From the NCBI RefSeq assembly GCF_020025155.1, contig NZ_CP073751.1:3287501-3351500 (forward strand): a DNA stretch of 64,000 nt. Reading direction: 5' to 3'. This DNA comes from Halopseudomonas nanhaiensis (lineage in GTDB: Bacteria; Pseudomonadota; Gammaproteobacteria; Pseudomonadales; Pseudomonadaceae). Shown here piece after piece: positions 35,327 to 38,505 of the stretch. The notes beneath the pieces are model-generated. The model was not told the DNA's origin. It worked only from the letters and a program-made list of their open reading frames with translations, and made no database searches. The position numbers and the translations under genes are program-made. The number at the start of each line of letters is the position of its first letter. Position 1 is the first letter of the stretch.

Positions 35327-35339
35327 GTTATAAGATAAC
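35327..35339 (+). promoter_or_regulatory. Zur box-like operator
   Basis: GTTATAAGATAAC is a perfect 5-3-5 palindrome and continues AACAT on the right. It closely matches the GTTATA-TATAAC core of gammaproteobacterial Zur sites. It lies 26 bases before the start of the His-rich DUF2796 gene, over the expected promoter, so zinc-loaded Zur would block transcription. Confidence 0.75.
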
Positions 35340-35365
35340 ATCCGATATTTCAGCGGAGGTTAAAC

Positions 35366-35974
35366 ATGAAGCGGATTCGCCCTGCCCTGGCTGTATGCTG
35401 TGTCGCATTACCCCTTCTGGCCCATGCGCAGCACCATGACCACGATCACCATCACGAAGATGGCGCTCAACCTGGCGTGCACCAGCACGGTGTTGGCGCC
35501 CTCAACCTGGCGCTGGATGGGCATGTACTGGAGCTGGAACTGTCCGGGCCGGCCGACAATTTCCTCGGGTTCGAGCACATGCCGACCAACGAGTCCGAGC
35601 GCCAGCAGGCTCAGCGAGTGCTCAAGACTCTGCGCGAACCCGGCAGCCTGTACATTCTCCCCGCCGAGGCCGGCTGCGTCGCCGAGTCGGCGGACATACA
35701 CAGCGCTCTGCTCGAGGCTGTCCAGACCCAGGCCAGCGGAAACGACTCCCCACCCGAGCACGAGCACGAGCACGAGCACGAGCAAAGTGAAACCCATCAG
35801 GACATTGCCGCACACTACCGCTTCCGCTGCGACAACCCCGACGCGCTCGACCGCATCGAACTGGCGCTGTTCAGCGTGTTTCCCAACACCGAGAAACTGC
35901 TGATCCAGAGCGTGGGTACCCGTGGTCAGCAGGGCGGCGAAGTCACCGCTACCCAGCCGGAAGTGAAGCTGTAA
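35366..35974 (+). CDS. DUF2796 (ZrgA-like) histidine-rich periplasmic protein
   Basis: Likely zinc-binding protein of a zinc-uptake operon. The 202-residue protein has a signal peptide (1-21), an immediate His-rich segment QHHDHDHHHEDG (about 22-33), a beta-rich core starting GVHQHGVGALNLALDG, and a second run of His-Glu repeats (EHEHEHEHE) near 132-140. Vibrio ZrgA and its Pseudomonas homologue belong to the same family and are Zur-controlled. A consensus AGGAGG-like GGAGG precedes the ATG. First gene of a four-gene unit. Confidence 0.88.
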   Translation: MKRIRPALAVCCVALPLLAHAQHHDHDHHHEDGAQPGVHQHGVGALNLALDGHVLELELSGPADNFLGFEHMPTNESERQQAQRVLKTLREPGSLYILPAEAGCVAESADIHSALLEAVQTQASGNDSPPEHEHEHEHEQSETHQDIAAHYRFRCDNPDALDRIELALFSVFPNTEKLLIQSVGTRGQQGGEVTATQPEVKL

Positions 35975-36022
35975 GATAGACGCCAGTCACTTCGCCACAG
36001 CCCAGGGAGTTGCCCACCACGC

Positions 36023-36730
36023 ATGGTCGCCGAGATCATTCACATCGAATCGCTGCGCTATGCCTGGCCGGGCCAACCGCCCTTGCTGGCGATCGACGAC
36101 CTGCGGCTGGGCCGCGGCGAACGGGTGTTTCTGAAAGGCCCCTCCGGCAGCGGCAAGACCACCTTGCTGGGATTGATCGGCGGGGTCCATCGTCCGGGAA
36201 GCGGCGTGGTACGGCTGCTGGGAAAGGACCTCGCGGCGCTGTCTTCGGCCGGCCGCGACCGCTTTCGGGCCGACCATACCGGTTACATTTTCCAGATGTT
36301 CAATCTGCTGCCGTATCTGTCGGTCATCGACAACGTCACCCTCGCCTGCCGTTTTTCCGCGCTCCGATGCAAACGTGCGCTGGCCGAGCACGACAATCTT
36401 GAAGCAGCCGCCAGAACGCTGCTGATCGGACTCGGGCTGCAGGAGGCGCAGCTGCGCAAACCGGTCAATGAGCTGTCTGTCGGGCAGCAGCAACGCGTCG
36501 CGGCGGCACGCGCGCTGATTGGCAAACCCGAACTGATCATTGCCGACGAGCCGACCTCTGCGCTGGACGCCGATACGCGCGAGGTGTTCATCCGGATCCT
36601 GTTCGACGAATGCGCTCGGGCCGGCACCAGCCTGTTGTTCGTCAGTCACGACGCCTCGCTGGAAAACCTGTTCGATCGCAGCCTCTCGCTCGAGCGGTTG
36701 AATCAGACCTCTACACGGGAGCGGCGCTGA
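36023..36730 (+). CDS. LolD/MacB-type ABC transporter ATPase
   Basis: ATP-binding subunit partnering the FtsX-type permease that follows. The 235-residue protein has Walker A GPSGSGKTT (39-47), the signature LSVGQQQRVAAARAL (about 150-165, with SVGQQ in place of SGGEQ) and Walker B LIIADEPTSALD. The closest described types are the mechanotransmission exporters LolCDE and MacB. Stop and start of the permease overlap (TGATG). Context suggests zinc-responsive envelope remodelling, not classical zinc import. Confidence 0.92.
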   Translation: MVAEIIHIESLRYAWPGQPPLLAIDDLRLGRGERVFLKGPSGSGKTTLLGLIGGVHRPGSGVVRLLGKDLAALSSAGRDRFRADHTGYIFQMFNLLPYLSVIDNVTLACRFSALRCKRALAEHDNLEAAARTLLIGLGLQEAQLRKPVNELSVGQQQRVAAARALIGKPELIIADEPTSALDADTREVFIRILFDECARAGTSLLFVSHDASLENLFDRSLSLERLNQTSTRERR

Positions 36731-37992
36731 TGTATCTGCTGCGGCTGTCATTCAAGAGCCTGGCCAACCGGCGCTTCACTGCCTTGCTGACGGTTCTGGC
36801 GATTGCGCTGAGCGTGGCCCTGTTGCTAGGCGTGGAGCGTATCCGGACGGAGGCCCGGGCCAGTTTCGCCAATACCATCTCCGGCACCGATCTGATCGTC
36901 GGCGCACGCTCCGGCTCGGTGCAGCTGCTGCTGTATTCGGTTTTTCGCATCGGCAACGCGACCAATAACATCAGTTGGAACAGTTACCAGCACATGGCCA
37001 GCCACCCGCGCGTCGACTGGGCCATTCCCGTCTCGCTCGGCGATTCCCATCGCGGCTTCAAGGTCATGGGTACCGACACCGGCTATTTCGATCACTTCCG
37101 TCACGGAAAGCAGCAAGCGCTCGCGCTGTCGGAGGGGGTGGTCTTCGATGATCTCTACGACGCAGTGATCGGCGCCGACGTGGCGCGGGACCTCGGCTAC
37201 GGCGTGGGCGACGAGATCGTTCTGGCACATGGCACCGGCTCGGTCAGTTTCATCGATCATGCGGACAAGCCGTTTCGCATCAGCGGCATTCTGGCGCGCA
37301 CCGGGACCCCGGTCGACCGCACCGTACACATCAGCCTGGAGGGAATGCAGGCGATCCACCTAGGCTGGAATGGCGGCACACCGGCACGCGGCCCCAATCG
37401 GATCAGCGCTGACCAGGCACGTCAGGTCGATCTGACGCCCACCTCGATAACCGCCGTCCTGCTTGGCCTGGACAGTCGCATAGCCACCTTCGCCGTGCAG
37501 CGCGATGTCAATCAGTATCGTGGCGAGCCGCTCCAGGCAATCCTTCCGGGCGTCGCACTGCAGGAACTCTGGAGTCTGCTCGGCACTGCGGAAAAGGCTC
37601 TGCTGCTGGTATCGGGCTGCGTGGTGCTGACCGGCCTGATCGGCATGCTCACCGCAGTACTGGCCGGACTCAACGAGCGGCGTCGAGAGATGGCCATCTT
37701 GCGCTCGGTCGGCGCCCGCCCGCTGCACGTGTTCGGTCTGCTGCTAAGCGAAGCGCTGGCGCTGGCGCTGACCGGCATCGGGTGCGGGCTGATGATCCTG
37801 TACGCAGTGCTATGGCTTGCCAGGCCCTGGCTGCTGACCCACTATGGGCTCTTCATCGCGATTCAGCCGCCGGCGCCGACCGAGTGGCGGCTGTTGGGCG
37901 GGATCCTGCTTGCAAGCGTGCTGATCGGCTGCATCCCAGCCTGGCGCGCCTACCGGATGTCGCTGACCGACGGCTTATCGATACGGATCTGA
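36730..37992 (+). CDS. FtsX/MacB-type ABC permease
   Basis: From the ATG at 36730 (420 residues): one N-terminal transmembrane helix (about 17-36), a large periplasmic domain containing the MacB-core segment SGTDLIVGARSGSVQLLLYSVFRIG, then three C-terminal helices (about 285-310, 335-365 and 385-410) with NERRREMAILRSVGARPLHVFGLLL, the FtsX signature. Topology fits a type VII ABC transporter that does mechanical work on a periplasmic substrate. Translationally coupled to the ATPase. Confidence 0.9.
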   Translation: MYLLRLSFKSLANRRFTALLTVLAIALSVALLLGVERIRTEARASFANTISGTDLIVGARSGSVQLLLYSVFRIGNATNNISWNSYQHMASHPRVDWAIPVSLGDSHRGFKVMGTDTGYFDHFRHGKQQALALSEGVVFDDLYDAVIGADVARDLGYGVGDEIVLAHGTGSVSFIDHADKPFRISGILARTGTPVDRTVHISLEGMQAIHLGWNGGTPARGPNRISADQARQVDLTPTSITAVLLGLDSRIATFAVQRDVNQYRGEPLQAILPGVALQELWSLLGTAEKALLLVSGCVVLTGLIGMLTAVLAGLNERRREMAILRSVGARPLHVFGLLLSEALALALTGIGCGLMILYAVLWLARPWLLTHYGLFIAIQPPAPTEWRLLGGILLASVLIGCIPAWRAYRMSLTDGLSIRI

Positions 37993-37995
37993 ACC

Positions 37996-38505
37996 ATGCG
38001 CGCACCCTCCGCACTTCTTCTGGCACTGCTCTCCCTGTGGTCAGCCGCTGCGTTAGCTGTCGAAGAGCTGACCTGGGACGATCTCATTCCAGCGGGATAT
38101 GAAGAGCCGATGCCCGCGCCGCAGACCATGCATGATCTGTCCAGCATGGGCGAGATGATCGATGAGACCGGTGATCCGGCCGAGCAACTGAACCCCGCTG
38201 CACCGGTGGTCTCGGAGTTGAACGGGCGCCAGGTGCGCCTGCCAGGTTACGTGGTGCCGCTGGACCTCAGCGAAGGTCGGGTGATCGAATTCCTGCTGGT
38301 CCCGTATTTCGGCGCTTGTATCCACGTACCGCCACCGCCGTCCAATCAGATCGTGCATGTCAGAACCAGCGAAGGGATAGAGCTCGACGCCCTGTACCAG
38401 CCGTTCTGGATCAGCGGGCCAATGCGGGTCGAACGAGTGGAGAGCGAATTGGCCGCGGCGGGTTACCAGATTAACGCCAGCACGATCGAGCCCTACGTCT
38501 ACTGA
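37996..38505 (+). CDS. DUF3299 periplasmic protein
   Basis: Unknown function. Signal peptide 1-21, then a 148-residue domain with the DUF3299 core GRQVRLPGYVVPLD and LLVPYFGACIHVPPPPSNQIV, containing a conserved Cys-x-His pair that could bind metal. It ends the Zur-box operon three bases after the permease. Its last seven bases overlap the end of the convergent TPR gene. Confidence 0.85.
   Translation: MRAPSALLLALLSLWSAAALAVEELTWDDLIPAGYEEPMPAPQTMHDLSSMGEMIDETGDPAEQLNPAAPVVSELNGRQVRLPGYVVPLDLSEGRVIEFLLVPYFGACIHVPPPPSNQIVHVRTSEGIELDALYQPFWISGPMRVERVESELAAAGYQINASTIEPYVY

Follow-up and report, generated by a model that had tools for sequence, protein, structure and literature searches.

The systems most closely related to the operon considered here are PA4063-PA4066 of Pseudomonas aeruginosa and the zrg genes of Vibrio, for which structures and mutants have already been published. 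Zur boxes are conserved in Pseudomonas (PMC10393844) and a Zur site was reported in PAO1 (PMC4542158), while the zrg genes of V. parahaemolyticus were induced 76-206-fold in low zinc (PMC9817125). Structures were described for PA4063, with micromolar zinc sites (PMC8561739), and for ZrgA of V. cholerae, together with mutants (PMC9820375). The published readings conflict, zinc import being favoured in Vibrio whereas pyochelin-cobalt export has been proposed in P. aeruginosa (PMC11481552; follow-up in PMC13083405). In this study, an orthologous four-gene operon was analysed in 64,000 nucleotides of Halopseudomonas nanhaiensis (hereafter the window, positions 3287501-3351500 of NZ_CP073751.1, the single contig of 3,653,147 bases, i.e., 3.65 Mb, of assembly GCF_020025155.1). 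The operon is in itself ordinary, and the wider family of machines behind it may be new. On the sequence comparisons presented below, there is close to an even chance that it encodes an ATP-driven zinc relay working in the periplasm, outside the inner membrane.

The operon and its Zur-type box

The operon lies directly behind a Zur-type box and comprises the following features (aa, amino acids; ABC, ATP-binding cassette):

35327..35339, no strand: Zur-type box GTTATAAGATAAC, with perfect 5-bp arms and a 3-bp spacer, 26 nucleotides ahead of the zrgA ATG (35366)
35366..35974, plus strand: zrgA, PA4063/ZrgA-like exported zinc-binding protein, 202 aa (PF10986, 3.2e-49)
35432..35455, plus strand: first His-rich run of ZrgA, H23-H30, read from the translation
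35756..35782, plus strand: second His-rich run of ZrgA, E131-E139 (EHEHEHEHE), read from the translation
36023..36730, plus strand: ABC ATPase, 235 aa (PF00005, ABC_tran, 6.3e-27)
36730..37992, plus strand: FtsX/MacB-type permease, 420 aa (PF02687, 1.2e-18; PF12704, 2e-13)
37996..38505, plus strand: PA4066/ZrgE-like DUF3299 protein, 169 aa (PF11736, 1.2e-47)

The coordinates, the box and the gene set given in the initial annotation, including the perfect palindrome 26 bases before a ZrgA-like gene, agreed base for base with those found here. The pattern GTTAT-N3-ATAAC occurred once in the window, where 0.005 occurrences were expected, and exact GTTATANNATAAC was present at three sites in the whole genome, where a Markov model of the window predicts 0.06. 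The second of these sites separates znuA from a presumed zur gene of the Fur family, behind which znuC-znuB follow (L034), and the third lies upstream of a ZnuD-like TonB-dependent receptor that contains a His-rich stretch (L035); thus all three sites in the genome stand at zinc genes. Only exact matches were used for this genome, since the motif with one mismatch was not enriched (9 strand matches, whereas the reversed pattern gave 16). In 55 of 80 named relatives zrgA had a nearby box with no more than one mismatch, and in 9 the box was exact. No promoter was found in a sigma-70 scan. A Zur box in promoter position is shared with the zrg/PA4063-PA4066 family, and Zur most likely represses the operon when zinc is plentiful, so that the four genes appear to be switched on when zinc runs out. 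The Zur-type control assumed at the outset is supported by these sites, and zinc-dependent expression of the orthologue has been published.

The genes are separated by 48, -1 and 3 nucleotides in operon order, the start of the permease overlapping the stop of the ATPase, and the operon ends at 38505. The contiguity of zrgA with an ABC ATPase, an FtsX-type permease and a DUF3299 gene is that of the zrg/PA4063-PA4066 family. In the conservation set (80 loci kept of at least 578 in named genomes), all four genes were present in the neighbourhood in 80/80 and their order was listed as zrgA-ATPase-permease-DUF3299 in 79, with the DUF3299 open reading frame (ORF) listed ahead of the permease in one. 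Because the four genes and their order are kept in relatives, the operon is the known PA4063-PA4066 system. A ybbN-type gene was located upstream in 73 of the 80.

ZrgA scored 167.5 bits against PF10986 (gathering threshold 27.4) and its nearest PDB entries were 7ahw (PA4063, 2e-37) and 8ezw ('Zinc-binding protein', 8.4e-19), which, with the two His-rich runs, bears out its naming as ZrgA-like. It fell below the narrower NCBIfam equivalog ZrgA_Zn_trans (NF047873), with 118.8 bits as against a cut-off of 185.

The permease, its partners and their relatives

The permease matched the FtsX and MacB_PCD families of Pfam only, and not ABC-3 (PF00950), the family of Znu-type permeases. Both domains of a MacB exporter, the C-terminal FtsX and the periplasmic core domain, were thus present, but the ATPase and the permease were not fused, being encoded by two ORFs (36023-36730 and 36730-37992), and no MacA partner was found in the four-gene operon, to which that search was confined. 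The motifs of the ATPase appeared intact by eye (Walker A GPSGSGKTT, signature LSVGQ and Walker B IIADEP), and its nearest PDB chains were of the MacB/LolD class, including YbbA (9ge6) and LolD. A model of the permease, built from 19 close sequences, was of low confidence (predicted local distance difference test, pLDDT, 57.6; periplasmic part mostly low). It showed four transmembrane helices, with the periplasmic part, approximately residues 46-273, between the first and the second. Foldseek ranked MacB (5lil) first for this low-confidence model, the top matches being of the mechanotransmission (type VII) class and the structural neighbours comprising MacB, LolCDE, YtrF, HrtBA and FtsEX. With a pLDDT of 57.6, no conclusion was drawn from the positions of residues. 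Caulobacter ZnuGHI was considered as a relative of the permease and dropped, being listed as ABC-2 type.

Five residues of the permease were invariant in the alignment:

37042..37044, plus strand: D105
37228..37230, plus strand: H167
37258..37260, plus strand: H177
37315..37317, plus strand: D196
37357..37359, plus strand: H210

In the zrg-type permeases (that of the window plus 56), D105 was found in 57/57 and H107 in 52/57, while H167, H177, D196 and H210 were each present in all 56 sequences with a letter at the column. Thirteen more distant permeases, sisters in the sense of the next most similar, were also fetched; 12 of them (23-32% identity to the window protein) kept D105, H167, H177, D196 and H210, and the most distant, L314, was without D54, D105 and all three His. 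The only periplasmic polar columns kept at 97% or more in 69 sequences (57 zrg-type plus 12, omitting L314, L316 and L317, split ORFs) were D54, D105, H167, H177, D196 and H210; L315 and L318 carry the full set and stand outside this count. Within the genome of H. nanhaiensis, the zrg permease has the motif, and no ORF of the four other FtsX-region loci does. All 215 motif-bearing ORFs, among 2,855 ORFs of at least 250 aa in the examined loci, matched the permease profile, which shows consistency more than rarity since this pool is rich in zrg-like operons. Such an invariant His/Asp set is the pattern that would be expected of a metal site. A free-text search of the open-access literature for such permease residues returned nothing relevant.

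In the permease tree, the zrg family (59/59, support 0.87), class 1 (4/4, 0.999) and a phosphatase-linked class 2 (8/8, 1.0) formed separate clades, with the outgroups falling inside and the deep order and root not settled. Zinc-related or receptor genes neighboured all four class 1 permeases: L302 has receptors, L303 a receptor of ZnuD-like type, L304 a DUF3299 gene and L305 an AztC/ZnuA-type binding protein (NCBIfam AztC 5.3e-87, 292 bits, below the cut-off of 350). In class 2 (L306-L313), an alkaline phosphatase and an ORF of 150-190 aa with a CPFC motif directly preceded the ATPase and permease in 8/8 loci (phmmer); the phosphatase matched PF00245 at 3.1e-110 to 1.2e-64 in the five scanned, and the motif was seen in the five ORFs aligned. 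Alkaline phosphatase is a zinc enzyme. Compared by hhalign with DUF3299, the CPFC family gave a probability of 95.2 (E 2.8e-8, 20% identity), as against 0.4 and 0.1 for the controls with ZrgA, which indicates that the CPFC protein is homologous to DUF3299. Pfam DUF1980_C matched two CPFC proteins at 0.02-0.03, below the cut-off, and is a lead only. Upstream of the phosphatase gene, a Pho-box-like 18-base site with one mismatch was found in three of the eight loci (L306, L308 and L312), whereas 300 shuffles of one upstream region yielded no site with fewer than three mismatches. In L310 a Zur-like box GTTATACCATAAC was located near the start of the phosphatase ORF, and neither kind of site was found upstream of the phosphatase gene in the remaining four loci; the best Zur-like site of L307 had three mismatches, a value also seen in 9 of 300 shuffles. 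A narrow literature query for the phosphatase-CPFC-ATPase-permease arrangement found nothing.

The DUF3299 protein scored 162 bits against PF11736 (gathering threshold 22) and matched PDB 4hsp (PA4066) at 1.3e-52. It carries a signal peptide, as read by eye, and an oligonucleotide/oligosaccharide-binding (OB) fold, and its model (pLDDT 87.8) gave a Z of 21.9 to 4hsp; beyond 4hsp there were only common OB-fold matches (Z about 8), which are uninformative. The Cys-x-His pair pointed out in the initial annotation is the following:

38317..38325, plus strand: C108-I-H110, in the motif GACIHVPPPPxNQ

Its C and H were present in 80/80 aligned members, chosen at E under 1e-10 so that weak members of G409 and G462 were excluded. 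In the DUF3299 protein of G462 (L304), C-A-F-C replaces C-x-H, and therefore C-x-H is not universal in Pfam DUF3299. The domain had also been called unstudied, which is slightly off, as the crystal structure 4hsp of PA4066 exists. A second, stand-alone DUF3299 gene lies outside the window in the same genome (G000:C1:3628117-3628554, L065), just after purE/purK-type genes and without an ABC pair, with the motif intact as CIHVPPPPPNQ. Tandem DUF3299 duplicates were seen behind the zrg permease in L200, L209, L227 and L278.

The permease and DUF3299 are closely coupled in their distribution. Of 299 genomes sampled across the phylum, 49 contained the permease proper, as assigned from match score and coverage; DUF3299 was found in 49/49 of those and ZrgA in 42/49. 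DUF3299 was also present in 11 genomes without the permease proper. ZrgA was examined in 41 zrgA genomes outside Pseudomonadaceae (19 + 22 over the ZrgA cut-off, with the genome of the window and G162 left out). No ABC-permease pair was found near zrgA in eight of these (G033, G066, G141, G144, G633, G660, G711 and G715), the zrgA of G066 lying 1.6 kb from a contig end, and in G010 the pair was 7.7 kb away. ZrgA is therefore separable from the ABC-permease, and 'invariably associated', as worded in PMC11481552, is too strong. As side observations, zrgA was followed directly by DUF3299 without ABC genes in L199 and L222 (G395 and G534 also hold a full zrg operon elsewhere), and L215 and L216 are ABC-FtsX-DUF3299 operons without zrgA, with a permease about 100 aa longer.

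Linkage to znu genes was found in six of the 41 genomes (G010, G141, G145, G559, G615 and G737), with zrgA at most 0.5 kb from znuA or znuCBA; a rough estimate of the chance expectation is well under one genome. For example, G559 contains a seven-gene run znuC-znuB-znuA-zrgA-ABC-FtsX-DUF3299 on one strand, and G145 the run znuA-zrgA-ABC-FtsX-DUF3299, with znuCB divergent and an exact box where the znuA ORF begins. The arrangement was zrgA-znuC-znuB-znuA in G010 and znuA-zrgA in G141, while in G615 and G737 znuCBA was divergent from zrgA-ABC-FtsX-DUF3299 and hence not in one operon. ZnuA was identified by Pfam in G559, G010 and G141 and ABC-3 by Pfam in G559 and G010, with phmmer used for G145, G615 and G737; G155, which has a znuC-like ATPase at a distance of about 4 kb, was not counted.

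Convergent to the zrg operon, the minus strand of the window (38499-43539) carries genes for a tetratricopeptide repeat protein, TonB, ExbD, ExbB, a TtpC-like ExbB and a coiled-coil-like protein, the first overlapping the DUF3299 stop. A convergent TonB/ExbD/ExbB/TtpC-type cluster was located downstream of zrg in 13 of the 80 relatives, plus one partial case. Energy for a zinc receptor may come from this cluster, at whose start no Zur-type site was found within two mismatches.

A possible zinc relay and its alternatives

Moving zinc between periplasmic proteins is the simplest task common to these associations. A relay is suggested because a zinc carrier, a cysteine-bearing OB-fold protein and a conserved His/Asp set are joined to a motion-transmitting permease, and it is supported by the box being shared exactly only with znuA/zur and the ZnuD-like receptor, by the coupling of the permease with DUF3299, by the linkage of zrgA to znu genes and by the sister operons that pair this permease type with alkaline phosphatase and a CPFC protein. 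ZrgA would catch weakly bound periplasmic zinc. The ATPase and the permease would form a mechanotransmission ABC complex in which ATP moves periplasmic domains and zinc is not carried through the membrane; permeases of this class probably transmit the motion of ATP hydrolysis to their periplasmic domain, as has been stated for MacB (PMC11481552). The invariant His/Asp set may bind zinc briefly and, together with the Cys-x-His DUF3299 protein, would pass it from ZrgA to its users. Candidate receivers are ZnuA/ZnuABC or some other importer, and possibly zinc enzymes of the periplasm, both direction and receivers being presumed; in the phosphatase branch zinc would be moved towards a zinc enzyme. 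More tentatively, and with the balance leaning somewhat against it, the zrg permease could be one branch of an unrecognised FtsX-type ABC family for periplasmic metal hand-off, whose marks would be D54, D105, H167, H177, D196 and H210 together with, in most cases, a cysteine-bearing OB-fold partner (C-x-H in DUF3299, C-x-x-C in relatives). In this joint reading the zrg branch would serve zinc uptake under Zur and the other branch would load zinc into a secreted phosphatase.

Several points weigh against a relay. The zinc affinity published for PA4063 is only in the micromolar range (PMC8561739), no znu gene was found within 0.5 kb of zrgA in 35 of the 41 genomes, and with a permease model this poor (pLDDT 57.6) the convergence of the His/Asp residues on one site cannot be read. 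Since zrg sustains growth of V. cholerae in the absence of ZnuA (PMC9820375), ZnuA cannot be the sole receiver. When PA4065 was lost in P. aeruginosa, cell zinc was not lowered but cobalt rose, and this rise depended on pyochelin (PMC11481552). A relay leaves the cobalt and pyochelin data unexplained, unless the lost hand-off of zinc raises pyochelin-dependent cobalt entry; it fits the unchanged total zinc and raised zinc demand of the PA4065 mutant, a result that does not single it out.

The usual reading in Vibrio is that of a true importer, with ZrgA as the substrate-binding protein and the permease carrying zinc to the cytoplasm. V. cholerae requires zrgA for growth in low zinc if znuA is absent (PMC9820375), the same is reported for V. 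parahaemolyticus (PMC9817125), and the zrgA-znu linkage points the same way. However, the permease is of FtsX/MacB_PCD and not ABC-3 type, and its structural neighbours in the low-confidence model are MacB, LolCDE, YtrF, HrtBA and FtsEX. We know of none among these that is an importer. Taken with the cell zinc that was not lowered by loss of PA4065 (PMC11481552), this makes import through the membrane unlikely. The envelope machines among the same neighbours, LolCDE and FtsEX-EnvC, could instead suggest a function in lipoprotein, outer-membrane or cell-wall work, merely induced in zinc starvation and with ZrgA as a zinc gauge, and V. cholerae does possess a Zur-dependent cell-wall hydrolase (PMC6381278). 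Neither the conserved His/Asp set nor the repeated zinc neighbours would be expected of such a machine, and this possibility is decidedly improbable.

Export of pyochelin-cobalt by a MacB-type system, the proposal made for P. aeruginosa, or of another metallophore, would explain why deletion of PA4065 in a znuA zrmB strain raised cell pyochelin and cobalt and why this was reversed without pyochelin synthesis (PMC11481552). On the other hand, pyochelin export without PA4065 was reported by the same authors, and the operon contains no MacA. The distribution of the pyochelin marker TIGR01761 (PchG, thiazolinyl imide reductase of pyochelin/yersiniabactin type, counted over its cut-off) is also difficult to reconcile with this function. 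It was present in 0/21 zrgA genomes of the class sample, 0/49 operon-bearing genomes of the phylum sample and 7/148 Pseudomonadaceae, as against zrgA over cut-off in 142/148 (the two 148-genome samples appear identical), and no match was found in the genome of H. nanhaiensis. Both occurred in 6 of the 142; zrgA was not seen in the seventh marker genome, which is 77% complete. We take TIGR01761 to cover yersiniabactin-type reductases also, and it was over cut-off in one control genome, so that it should overcount rather than undercount. Since the marker is rare where zrgA is near-universal, pyochelin cannot be what keeps the operon in Pseudomonadaceae; a general pyochelin role was rejected as very unlikely, although such a role may exist within P. 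aeruginosa. Metallophore export as a whole seems improbable.

Of the initial annotation's view of the transporter, the assignment to the MacB/FtsX rather than the ZnuB type stands, and the term exporter is not supported, since this fold class transmits motion without fixing a direction, the operon has no MacA and its neighbours elsewhere are zinc-uptake genes or a zinc enzyme. Its remark that the actual work of the system is not understood can largely be accepted, but leaves aside the published zinc uptake in Vibrio and the pyochelin-cobalt export proposed for PA4065. With the residue set and the phosphatase branch, the importer, exporter and relay models can be tested directly against one another, the invariant His/Asp residues being the point mutants that would separate these models. 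If the function of the phosphatase branch is the one suggested by its neighbours, it would bear on how zinc reaches secreted zinc enzymes during zinc or phosphate shortage, a task for which, to our knowledge, no dedicated machine is known.

Comparison with known systems

The operon shares its genes, gene order, Zur-type control and Pfam families with PA4063-PA4066, for which the orthologue structures 4hsp and 7ahw are available, and differs in a genome without a match to the pyochelin marker and in a second His run of ZrgA that is shorter than that of PA4063. ZrgA, the ATPase, the permease, DUF3299 (ZrgE) and Zur control are likewise common to Vibrio zrgABCDE (PMC9817125; PMC9820375), whereas Vibrio has an additional ZrgD and the ZrgA of the window reaches only 118.8 bits of the 185 set for the equivalog. 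The FtsX/MacB_PCD domains and, in the low-confidence model, the four-helix layout are those of MacB of the MacA-MacB-TolC pump, from which zrg differs in its separate ATPase and permease chains, the lack of MacA in the operon and the conserved periplasmic His/Asp set. ZnuABC is also a Zur-controlled zinc system, with physical linkage to zrg in six other genomes, but ZnuB is of ABC-3 type and ZnuA is a cluster A-I binding protein, and neither family matches the operon. In NosDFY-NosL, a copper-loading ABC complex uses ATP to hand metal over in the periplasm. The proteins and the metal are different there and no homology is claimed, but in its manner of working we think that zrg would be like NosDFY-NosL.

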